Of a stretch of 64,000 nt of DNA, positions 5,429 to 37,365 are shown piece by piece (positions within the stretch are counted from its first letter, which is position 1; each line of letters opens with the position of its first letter). A program made the translations under genes and the position numbers. The stretch comes from Paenibacillus algicola (GTDB taxonomy: Bacteria; Bacillota; Bacilli; Paenibacillales; Paenibacillaceae): assembly GCF_005577435.1 (NCBI RefSeq), contig NZ_CP040396.1, positions 3,916,001 through 3,980,000 of the forward strand. The letters are read 5' to 3'. The notes beneath the pieces are model-generated. The model was not told where the DNA came from and made no database searches. It saw only the letters and a program-made list of their open reading frames with translations.

Positions 5429-5866
5429 TTAACCTTGAAGTTCGTAAACTTCTGGTTTTTGAGCTTCGTGTGGATGTGCTGTGCCTGCATATGCTTTCAG
5501 TCTCAGCTTCATTTTCTCGCCCATGCGAGTTTTAGGAAGCATGCCGTGAACGGCGCTTTCGATCACGCGCTCAGGGAATTTCTTGATCAGGTCTTCAGCA
5601 ACAGTCACTTTCAATCCACCTGGATGCATGGAGTGACGGTAGTATTTCTTGTTGGACATCTTCTTCCCGGTCAGTACAATCTTCTCCGAGTTGATTACGA
5701 CTACGAAGTCGCCAGTATCCACATGTGGAGTAAATTGTGGCTTGTGCTTGCCGCGGATCAGAGCCGCAACTTCACTTGCCAAACGGCCAAGCGTTTTGCC
5801 TTCGGCATCAACGATGTACCAGTTACGCTCAACTTCATTTGGCTTCGCCATATAGGTGGTACGCAT
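5429..5866 (-). CDS. rplM: 50S ribosomal protein L13 (uL13)
   Basis: 145 residues from the ATG at 5866, preferred over an upstream ATG at 5905 because GGAGGAAAC lies just before it and the family begins at MRTTYMAKP. Seen: [17 protein letters not shown] and the conserved [10 protein letters not shown] segment. L13 binds 23S rRNA early in 50S assembly. It is read from its own promoter at 6021-6049 through a hairpin-bearing leader, which fits the L13 autoregulatory leader known in Bacillales. rpsI is cotranscribed. Confidence 0.97.
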
Positions 5867-5972
5867 GTTAAGTTTCCTCCTTGTATTCATCCGAAAAAGT
5901 TTCAAATGTTCATCATTTATCTTCGTTCATGTGTGAAGCAAATTTAAGTGTTAAATGGATCGTATTACGGCA

Positions 5973-6010
5973 TTTTCTCAACCGGGGCTGTGGGAGAGCC
6001 GTTAAGAAAA
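5973..6010 (-). ncRNA. L13 leader hairpin (rplM 5' UTR)
   Basis: In the rplM leader, TTTTCTTAAC (6001-6010) pairs with GGTTGAGAAAA (5973-5983), and the inner GGCT pairs with AGCC around a CTCCCAC loop. The hairpin sits right at the expected transcript 5' end. Position and form match the L13 leader described by comparative genomics in Bacillales (Rfam L13_leader), where L13 is thought to bind its own mRNA. The Rfam match is recalled, not searched. Confidence 0.65.
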
Positions 6011-6020
6011 CACAACTTAT

Positions 6021-6049
6021 ATAATACAGGATACACGCATAAACTGCAA
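6021..6049 (-). promoter_or_regulatory. sigma-A promoter of rplM-rpsI
   Basis: Minus strand TTGCAG (6044-6049), 17-bp spacer, TATTAT (6021-6026). The start would fall near 6014, at the foot of the leader hairpin. No terminator was seen between truA and this promoter, so read-through from truA may add transcripts. Confidence 0.75.
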
Positions 6050-6144
6050 GTGTTTTTTAAGGTAATGACCTTGAAAACAGCGCTGCTGCCAGGACGTTTA
6101 CACCGTCTCCAAAAACAGCGATCTCAGCATTAGCCCAGTGCCTG

Positions 6145-6936
6145 TTAAGTCCTGATTATATAAGAGGCTGCATCCAGCTCAACGTCCCACAGCATCAAGC
6201 CATGGCTGACCGCTGTTGGCCCTGCCGCTGCACGATTCTGCGCGATTAACGCAGTCCTAACGCTTTCAGGCGTACGTTTGCCCTCACCGACCTCAATCAG
6301 CGTACCCATAATAATCCGCACCATATGCTGTAAAAATCCACTGCCCGTGATATAGGTGTGTACGACACCCTGATCTCGTGGGTGATCCCGGCTCATGCTG
6401 GTGTCAACCTCCATCCATGCATCATAAATCGTCCGAACATGAGATGGCTTGGTGGAGCGGCGGGAAGCAAAGCTGGTGTAATCGTGCGTGCCCAGTAAAT
6501 GCTTCAAGCCTTCCTCCATTGCGCTCACATTCAGCCGTCCATAATGGTGAAATTGATAACGGAGATGAAAAGGATCCGGAAACTGGTTGGCGTTGATCGT
6601 ATATCGGTAGGTTTTGCGCTTCGCCTCCCGGCGGGAATGAAAATCAAGCGAAACCTCCTGTGCATCAGTTACGACAATGTCCGAAGGCAGCCTGGAGTTC
6701 AGAGCCGAACACCACCGCTCCGGAGGAATCATGGCAACGGAGCAGAAATTAAAAATCTGTCCCCGAGCATGAACGCCGGCATCGGTTCGGCCTGAGGCCG
6801 TGATTTTCAACGATTCCCCCGTCAAGCCGTAGATGGCCTGCTCAATCACATCCTGAACGGTGTTGCCGTCCGGCTGTGTCTGAAAGCCATTATAGTTCGT
6901 ACCGTCGTAGCTTACTCTCATCAGAAGATTGCGCAT
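6145..6936 (-). CDS. truA: tRNA pseudouridine(38-40) synthase TruA
   Basis: 263 residues from ATG 6934-6936, chosen because AGGAGGGAAATT precedes it; the frame is open upstream to 7044 but that part is the terminator region. It isomerises uridines 38-40 in the tRNA anticodon arm. Seen: MRVSYDGTNYNGFQ at the N-terminus and the catalytic Asp in SGRTDAGVHARGQ near residue 53, then YRYTINANQFPDPF and the C-terminal GSGFLQHMVRIIMG. In B. subtilis the ecfA1-ecfA2-ecfT genes lie between rplQ and truA; here that space is only about 380 bp and holds a structured RNA and terminator. Confidence 0.96.
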   Translation of the reverse strand: MRNLLMRVSYDGTNYNGFQTQPDGNTVQDVIEQAIYGLTGESLKITASGRTDAGVHARGQIFNFCSVAMIPPERWCSALNSRLPSDIVVTDAQEVSLDFHSRREAKRKTYRYTINANQFPDPFHLRYQFHHYGRLNVSAMEEGLKHLLGTHDYTSFASRRSTKPSHVRTIYDAWMEVDTSMSRDHPRDQGVVHTYITGSGFLQHMVRIIMGTLIEVGEGKRTPESVRTALIAQNRAAAGPTAVSHGLMLWDVELDAASYIIRT

Positions 6937-7008
6937 AATTTCCCTCCTGCCTGGTGCCTGATGTCGTTCTCCCCGGTTAGGTGAGTGCAGCCTGGTCCAA
7001 AAACACCT

Positions 7009-7038
7009 AAAAAAAGAGCCCACCAAGGAGCTCCTTTT
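7009..7038 (-). terminator. Terminator after the rplQ-downstream RNA
   Basis: Minus strand AAAAGGAGC pairs with GCTCTTTTT (one G-U pair) around a loop of about 9 nt, running into seven T. It lies 280 bp after rplQ and 72 bp before the truA start, so it either ends the alpha operon or acts as an attenuator of truA. Confidence 0.8.
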
Positions 7039-7310
7039 CATCATGCCAGCCGATCCTTCACAGTCAGCTGCATGACTAGAAGGCCTACCTTACGATGCCA
7101 CAGGTGTAGCCGAGAGGAGCCGAACAAGTACGGCATGTTCCATCTCGAACCACGTCCCTGATCTAGGCTCTGAACGATTATCACAGGGGATAAATCGGTA
7201 ACGAGCCGGGCATACATAACTACAGTCACTTCGGATGCAAAGCTCACTGTCGTTATTGAAACCTTTCGGCTGCAGCCACAAGATTTCAATAGTGATCTAA
7301 CAGGTTAGAT
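7010..7310 (-). ncRNA. Candidate structured RNA between rplQ and truA
   Basis: About 300 nt with no credible protein but a series of hairpins in order of transcription: ATCTAA/TTAGAT (7295-7310); ATTGAAA/TTTCAAT (7255-7290) enclosing GGC-TGCA-GCC; ATAAC-ACAGT/ACTGT-GTTAT (7216-7256, one mismatch); GGCTC/GAGCC (7166-7207) enclosing CGATTTATC/GATAATCG; a possible branched part closed by ATGCC/GGCAT near 7096-7128; AGTCA/TGACT near 7061-7076; then the intrinsic terminator. No T-box sequence, RNase P, tmRNA, SRP or 6S signature was recognised. It could be a stable small RNA processed from the alpha operon transcript or a cis-regulator of truA. Folding was done by eye only. Confidence 0.5.
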
Positions 7311-7318
7311 TGTAATGA

Positions 7319-7684
7319 TTAAGCGCGGTCTACCAGTTCCAGATAGACCATAGGAGCTGCGTCACCACGACGAGGTCCCAGCTTCAGGATACGAGTGTAT
7401 CCGCCGGCACGCTCGGAGTAACGAGGTGCAATCTCAGCAAACAGCTTTTGAATTGCATCCTGCTCACCATCAACCGTTTCACGACGAACAAATGCAGCTA
7501 CCTGACGACGTGCATGCAGGTCATTGCGCTTTGCCTTGGTGATCAGCTTTTCAGCGATGGAACGCACTTCCTTGGCTTTCGCCTCGGTTGTTTGAATACG
7601 CTCGTACAAGAACAGATCAGTTACCAGGTCACGAAACAACGCTTTACGCGCGCTGGAATCGCGGCCCAACTTTTGGTATGCCAT
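7319..7684 (-). CDS. rplQ: 50S ribosomal protein L17 (bL17)
   Basis: 121 residues, the short Bacillales form. Seen: the N-terminal [20 protein letters not shown] and the C-terminal [14 protein letters not shown]17 binds 23S rRNA near the tunnel exit. It is last gene of the alpha operon, 34 nt after rpoA, and is followed by the structured non-coding stretch ending at a terminator near 7010. Confidence 0.97.
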
Positions 7685-37130: not shown

Positions 37131-37365
37131 TATTTACACCTCCTGATTGTATGGTTAGCTGGAAAGTCACACTTCCCATCCTACGGGCATCAAAAAAGCC
37201 TCCGTAGAATCACGAAGGCCTGATGAATCATCCCTATACCGAATCATCGGCATAGCTGTTGACGTTCTATCATAACACCTCGGTAGGAGATTAAGCCTGC
37301 TAACGGCACCTACTGTCTACGGTAAGCATATTCGAATGTAATAACAAGTCATCTTCATGACAACT
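37131..37365 (-). ncRNA. L10 leader with attenuator
   Basis: Untranslated leader of rplJL. Near its end GCCTTCGT pairs with ACGGAGGC (37192-37215 area) and runs into six T, a terminator-like hairpin about 60 nt before rplJ. Upstream lies the folded part expected to bind L10-(L12)4. Known: Rfam lists an L10 leader in Firmicutes; the match here is from position and architecture, not a search. Confidence 0.65.

Follow-up and report, generated by a model that had tools for sequence, protein, structure and literature searches.

The interval between rplQ and truA of Paenibacillus algicola almost certainly holds a real, conserved and so far unlisted structured RNA. We propose that this RNA is a lineage-specific non-coding leader of a new family that attenuates transcription running from the alpha operon into truA, and we give this reading a probability of about 0.48. 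The structure, conservation, position and spacing of the RNA are observed features of the genomes compared here.

A structured RNA between rplQ and truA

The window analyzed was a stretch of 64,000 nucleotides of P. algicola, and all coordinates below refer to it. The gene order on the minus strand is the alpha operon rpsM-rpsK-rpoA-rplQ, then truA, and then rplM and rpsI (NCBIfam names). The rplQ gene for ribosomal protein L17 (7319..7684, minus strand) is the upstream neighbor of the RNA, and truA, which encodes tRNA pseudouridine(38-40) synthase (6145..6936, minus strand, ATG at 6936), lies downstream and is the probable target of control; both names were confirmed by NCBIfam. The minus strand from 7321 to 7006 had a minimum free energy of -111.8 kcal/mol, compared with -92.8 ± 4.9 for 100 dinucleotide shuffles (z = -3.88), none of which was as good, and the plus strand of the interval gave a z of -2.35, with 2 of 100 shuffles as good.

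An earlier note on this DNA had described here a maintained non-coding element of about 300 nt, consisting of a row of hairpins and an intrinsic terminator. The hairpins were found at the positions it gave: those at 7255-7290 and 7216-7256 are in the minimum free energy structure and that at 7295-7310 in the centroid only, the one at 7166-7207 is the 42-nt helix P3 with its nested stem, and the one at 7061-7076 is the 5' part of a longer hairpin, P5 (7040-7076). The terminator also held, by consensus and by position, at 7039-7010 with its U-run 72 nt from the truA ATG. Stop codons occurred in two of the three frames in all 17 related cores and in the third frame in 15 of 17, in agreement with the non-coding claim, and we rejected a protein-coding reading on these grounds. 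The proposed extent was only partly right: a conserved structured RNA is present, but its common part covers only 7010-7232. Counted from the beginning of the rplQ stop codon, the core starts after 15-89 nt in the 17 sequences and after only 15-21 nt in 11 of them, which shows that the hairpins near rplQ are lineage-specific.

The common core, which we call type A, extends over 223 nt on the minus strand (7010..7232); it starts with GAAGTGACTGTAG, closes with the U-run of the terminator, and is defined by the 17-genome alignment and by matches of R1, a covariance model of this core. Helix P1 closes P2, which encloses P3 and a P4 made of three helices; farther downstream lie an independent hairpin, P5, and then the terminator. 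P1 (7079..7232, minus strand) is the closing helix GAAG/CTTC, in which 7229-7232 pairs with 7079-7082, and was invariant in 17 of 17 sequences. Within it, the long helix P2 (7090..7220, minus strand; TTATG/CGTAA and TGCCC/GGCA) surrounds P3 and P4 and varies little. P3 (7166..7207, minus strand) is the variable hairpin GGCTC...GAGCC with its nested stem, and P4 (7103..7158, minus strand) is a stack of P4a, P4b and P4c. P5 (7040..7076, minus strand) consists of GTCATGC/GCATGAT and AGCTGA/TCGGCT. The predicted terminator, AAAAGGAGCTCC..GGGCTC with a U-run, occupies 7010..7039 on the minus strand. Two hairpins lie wholly or partly ahead of the core on the same strand, namely P0 (7216..7256, TAACGACAGT...ACTGTAGTTA), which, in the window and its near relatives, competes with P1 and P2 for their 5' strands, and a long lineage-specific hairpin outside the common core (7255..7290, ATTGAAATC...GGTTTCAAT). 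P1 was unfavored in the full-length fold of the window's interval because of the competition by P0.

Conservation and covariation

We collected the interval from the genus Paenibacillus. rplQ was found in 99 of 100 genomes, and with 80 named records added the sample came to 187 loci with 157 distinct rplQ-truA intervals, at every one of which truA was present; it lay downstream of rplQ in the same direction in 118 of the 118 loci listed. An initial BLAST of 60 genomes matched seven relatives and the window's own genome. Seventeen distinct intervals had a core of 208-233 nt that starts with GAAGTGACTG and ends with the terminator, and the named carriers were Paenibacillus dakarensis, Paenibacillus sp. 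EZ-K15 and P. solani. One record in the sample, titled Neobacillus mesonae MER 107, has an rplQ 92% and a truA 68% identical to those of the window's Paenibacillus and is probably a misnamed assembly.

The 17 aligned cores were invariant at 110 of 200 ungapped columns and shared a long, nearly invariant stretch, GAAGTGACTGTAGTTATGTATGCCC. A comparison of identity between spacer and core was uninformative, because identity is overestimated when spacers of unequal length are aligned with gaps. P1, P2, P4a and P4b hardly vary, and so covariation cannot test these helices. In the others, a recount of each helix from fixed anchors showed pairs changed on both sides in three helices, two in P3 (L012 left out of the count), two in P4c and one in P5a, the last a C-G to U-A switch in the outer helix. 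The observed pairing was reached by 4, 5 and 0 of 500 partner shuffles for P3, P4c and P5a, respectively; P5b showed no excess over its shuffles, 402 of 500 of which reached it. RNAalifold on a plain MAFFT alignment gave only one doubly changed pair, a low count that we attribute to misalignment of the variable helices P3, P4c and P5. The claim of a maintained structured RNA is thus borne out by conservation beyond the species and by some compensatory changes.

Different RNAs at the same site

Model R1, which was built with P3 unpaired, matched 17 of the 100 genus genomes at 152-208 bits with one clear copy each, and these are also the genomes with type A at the rplQ-truA site. The same 17 were the only matches among 394 genomes of the family (1 of 19 genera), and 296 genomes drawn evenly from the order gave no further ones, although scans of more than 40 genomes were run with stricter filters and may lose weak matches. 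Most other species of the genus have a different RNA at this site, either type B, of 212-282 nt, or type C, with 104-144 nt before the terminator (22 examples). Among 99 genus genomes, sorted by custom text patterns and, for ten rows, by eye, we counted 52 with type C, 18 with simple terminators, 17 with type A, 11 with type B and one unclear (L161), so that 80 of 99 have one of the three RNAs. The presence of other RNAs at this spot in sister species was beyond the reach of the earlier note, which had a single sequence to work from.

Types B and C are homologous and found each other by nhmmer (E down to 1.5e-9), whereas type A matched B or C no better than shuffled controls did. By eye only, A and B/C look alike in having a GUUAU/AUAAC stem and a CCUU ahead of the terminator. 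A type C model run on 388 family genomes matched 50 genus genomes strongly and four type B genomes weakly, and gave two weak matches in other genera (E 0.03 and 0.07). In the type C structure 97.8% of cells were paired, compared with 35-54% when the columns were slid, and the covariation score was reached by 0 of 500 shuffles. Three type C pairs were changed on both sides, a number matched by 7 of 500 shuffles and also obtained on sliding by -2 or -3 columns. We rejected a dispersed element, because types A and C each occur in one clear copy per genome; the second matches were weak, one to R1 in G078 (17 bits, E 0.07) and one to type C in G090, where it is antisense and overlies the first.

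In a tree of rplQ and truA DNA (a single FastTree run, 105 loci), type A formed one clade (support 0.996), and A, B, C and L161 together formed another (1.0), with the simple-terminator species outside. The structured RNA may have arisen once and then diverged or been replaced, or it may have arisen twice side by side, and the sequences favor neither course. L161, from genome G003, has lost the RNA and kept the terminator and truA in an interval of 79 nt; its terminator loop is ATCA, as against the loops CGCC, CGCA, TGCC and CACA of type C. The locus offers, in close relatives, a series (simple terminator, the three RNA types, secondary loss) in which the origin, divergence and loss of a structured regulatory RNA can be studied.

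Other intervals in the sample had features of their own. P. fonticola and P. ihumii (L062 and L063) share a further hairpin-rich rplQ-truA interval of about 300 nt that is unlike A, B or C. Inserts with inverted repeats, often with arms like AAACG...CGTTTCT, lie between the terminator and truA in L002, L003, L028, L141 and L169 and between truA and rplM in L044; by eye they resemble small dispersed repeats.

Terminator spacing and promoter-like sequences

The spacer from the U-run to the truA ATG measured 28-238 nt in type A, 14-135 nt in type B and 15-153 nt in type C, and 72 nt in the window. It was shorter than 30 nt in 1 of 17 type A, 6 of 11 type B and 10 of 50 type C intervals (17 of 78 in total, the shortest 14 nt). 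A strict consensus promoter scan reported sites in 3 of 78 intervals, compared with about 14 expected from mononucleotide shuffles; only one site was wholly behind the terminator, and there was none in the window's interval. This silence is weak evidence, because the strict scan also misses what we take to be the promoter of rplM, a promoter-like sequence recognized by eye (TTGCAG, 17 nt, TATTAT; 6020..6049, minus strand) that passes a relaxed scan and fails the strict one, which near rplM reported another site close to the end of truA. The relaxed scan found sites in 14 of 78 intervals (about 28 expected), two of them behind the terminator. Type A was not depleted in it (9 of 17, 7.3 expected). 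In the window's interval it found one weak site, within the core and upstream of the terminator, and none behind the terminator.

The short spacers and the rarity of promoter-like sites behind the terminator suggest that truA is probably transcribed through the type A, B and C RNAs; transcripts started within rplQ or the core would have to pass the terminator all the same. With a truA promoter located past the terminator, by contrast, the RNA would amount to no more than the tail of the alpha operon. A similar promoter-like sequence precedes rplM behind truA in eight relatives listed, and because rplM has one of its own, control would mainly be expected of truA. Of the two roles that the earlier note had left side by side, a stable small RNA and an attenuator of truA, these spacings and promoter counts favor the second.

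A candidate terminator/antiterminator switch

We infer the following mechanism, including transcription across the element, the existence and direction of a switch and the identity of the gene under control. RNA polymerase leaving rplQ would transcribe the RNA and reach its terminator, and truA would be served by read-through only. With P1 formed, the terminator would form and truA expression would be low. With P1 unmade or not stabilized, the strand on its 3' side, which is CCUUC in type A and GCGGGAAUCACCUUG in type C, could pair with the terminator 5' arm, and the polymerase would continue. The signal that stabilizes P1 could be a ribosomal protein, another protein or a metabolite. In the window, the candidate antiterminator strand is the P1 3' strand with its adjoining bases (AGGCCTTC; 7079..7086, minus strand).

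We computed the pairing of the P1 3' strand with the terminator 5' arm and loop and obtained 7-9 pairs in 17 of 17 type A, 8-9 in 11 of 11 type B and 7-11 in 50 of 50 type C sequences. In a nascent RNA without the terminator 3' arm, the antiterminator outweighed P1 in 17 of 17 type A and 34 of 50 type C sequences, and in only 1 of 11 of type B; with the complete terminator present, the terminator won in 16 of 17, 50 of 50 and 11 of 11, respectively. The type C terminator loops are largely still complementary to the P1 strand, and in L124 a change of the loop from CGCA to CACA turns a U-G pair into U-A opposite GUGGGA of P1. Terminators of species without the RNA served as a control. They paired with the upstream 90 nt by a median of 6.9 pairs (13 intervals; 4.6 in five unclassified intervals), and the same measure gave medians of 7.8 for type A, 6.75 for B and 10.3 for C. 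The antiterminators of types A and B are therefore not special, since terminators without the RNA pair upstream nearly as well. Shuffled P1 strands reached the observed number of pairs in a median of 8% (A), 15% (B) and 7% (C) of trials, and by eye no antiterminator pair was doubly changed in the 17-sequence type A alignment.

These data suggest that an antiterminator switch is a plausible hypothesis for type C, and a weak one for type A, the type of the window. In the window and its near relatives, the predicted competition of P0 with P1 would favor read-through. We rejected the masking of P1 by ribosomes at the rplQ stop codon as a general device, because the distance from the stop codon to the core is too variable (15-89 nt).

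Comparison with known RNA families

The element matched none of the 4227 families of Rfam 15, either at the gathering score or at E≤5, in keeping with the earlier note, which had recognized no family, and 20 loci of named relatives (3 type A, 3 type B, 2 type C and 12 others) gave no match at the gathering score. A search of four loci at E≤3 gave a single match, at chance level (E 2.7); it lay between rplQ and truA in L092, a species with a simple terminator.

L17DE (RF01708), which the earlier note had set apart from this element, indeed had no match in the genome of the window at E≤10 and was rejected; as a positive control, the model matched 4 of 14 control genomes, one above the cut-off. 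The L17DE of Lactobacillales and Listeria is similar in being structured and just downstream of rplQ (here the gene ends at 7319 and the core is at 7010-7232). It differs in having a 78-position Rfam model and in being described, in the text of PMC2864571, as a 3'-UTR element that often has no annotated gene close behind, whereas here a terminator and truA follow. L17DE and ribosomal leaders are the subject of passages of PMC2864571 and PMC7247131, in the main texts of which the word Paenibacillus is absent.

Ribosomal-protein leaders bind the ribosomal protein and often mimic its rRNA site. Leaders such as those of L10 (RF00557) and L13 (RF00555) resemble the present RNA in being structured, ahead of a translation-machinery gene, and restricted to a lineage, as ribosomal leaders are described in passages of PMC7247131. 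They differ in that the first downstream gene here is truA and not a ribosomal protein gene, and in that no likeness to rRNA was found. Eight comparisons with the genome's own 16S and 23S rRNA gave nothing above shuffled queries (the best was reached by 22 of 100 shuffles), and imitation of rRNA appears improbable for this reason. We also rejected the L13 leader itself, with no match in the genome at E≤10 and none in 6900-7420 or 5850-6250 at E≤5. A known ribosomal leader, that of L10, does occur elsewhere in the window (37183-37340, minus strand; RF00557, 79 bits). Riboswitch-type attenuators are similar in that a closing P1 competes with an antiterminator for one strand, as predicted here; they differ in that no Rfam riboswitch matched and that the type A antiterminator is hardly above background.

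Passages of PMC5343137 list staphylococcal sRNA candidates adjoining rplQ and in the truA-rplM gap; transcripts near these genes are therefore known elsewhere. We found no report in the open-access literature of a truA leader, attenuator, riboswitch or read-through, or of an rplQ-truA element.

Alternative explanations and significance

Several results count against the attenuator. The antiterminators of types A and B are near background and that of type B rarely beats P1, P1 itself is unfavored in the full-length fold of the window's interval, and most spacers (61 of 78 A, B and C intervals) are at least 30 nt long. L161 lacks the RNA and yet keeps its terminator and truA, and of the promoter scans the strict one misses the presumed rplM promoter and the relaxed one shows no depletion in type A. 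The RNA could instead be a stable small RNA from the end of the alpha-operon transcript, with the terminator as its 3' end and a processed 5' end, acting in trans on an RNA or a protein. Its nearly invariant stretch, compact fold, 3' terminator and single clear copy would fit, but where the spacer is shorter than 30 nt the RNA is inseparable from a truA leader, and two forms at one site that have no detectable common sequence would be odd if trans targets were conserved; we regard this as unlikely. Much the same standing belongs to an element of the alpha-operon 3'-UTR that would bind a ribosomal protein, for example L17, or shield the mRNA end, with feedback on the upstream genes and not on truA. 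It would account for a position directly after rplQ, and passages of PMC2864571 and PMC7247131 put forward the same idea for L17DE, which follows L17 genes. The search for rRNA likeness speaks against it, though rRNA mimicry is not obligatory, and the short truA spacers would make a downstream effect hard to avoid.

The RNA might also be an elaborate operon end with no regulation, that is, a terminator with fast-evolving hairpins. Simple terminators suffice in 18 of 99 genus genomes, L161 lost the RNA, the forms differ between sister clades, and terminators generically pair upstream, all of which agree with such an end. Filler, however, would not be expected to keep more than half of its ungapped columns (110 of 200) invariant in 17 non-coding cores, or to show compensatory changes and R1 scores of 152-208 bits, and we consider this explanation the least probable of those set out here. 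A bolder form of the attenuator appears doubtful to us. It would be a novel class of leader, sensing a ligand or a protein, that ties truA transcription to the state or products of the alpha operon and occurs within one genus, at a single site, in two or more widely different forms (A and B/C). A conserved attenuator at this position would link the production of ribosomes to tRNA modification.

The region upstream of rplM

Between truA and rplM (about 5968-6049, minus strand), we noticed a conserved hairpin, CTTAAC GGCTCTCCCACAGCC CCGGTTGAG, behind the rplM promoter-like sequence. By eye, its arms change together in relatives (CTTAAT/ATTAAG, CTTGAT/ATCAAG), and it is likely to be an rplM leader that RF00555 does not detect.
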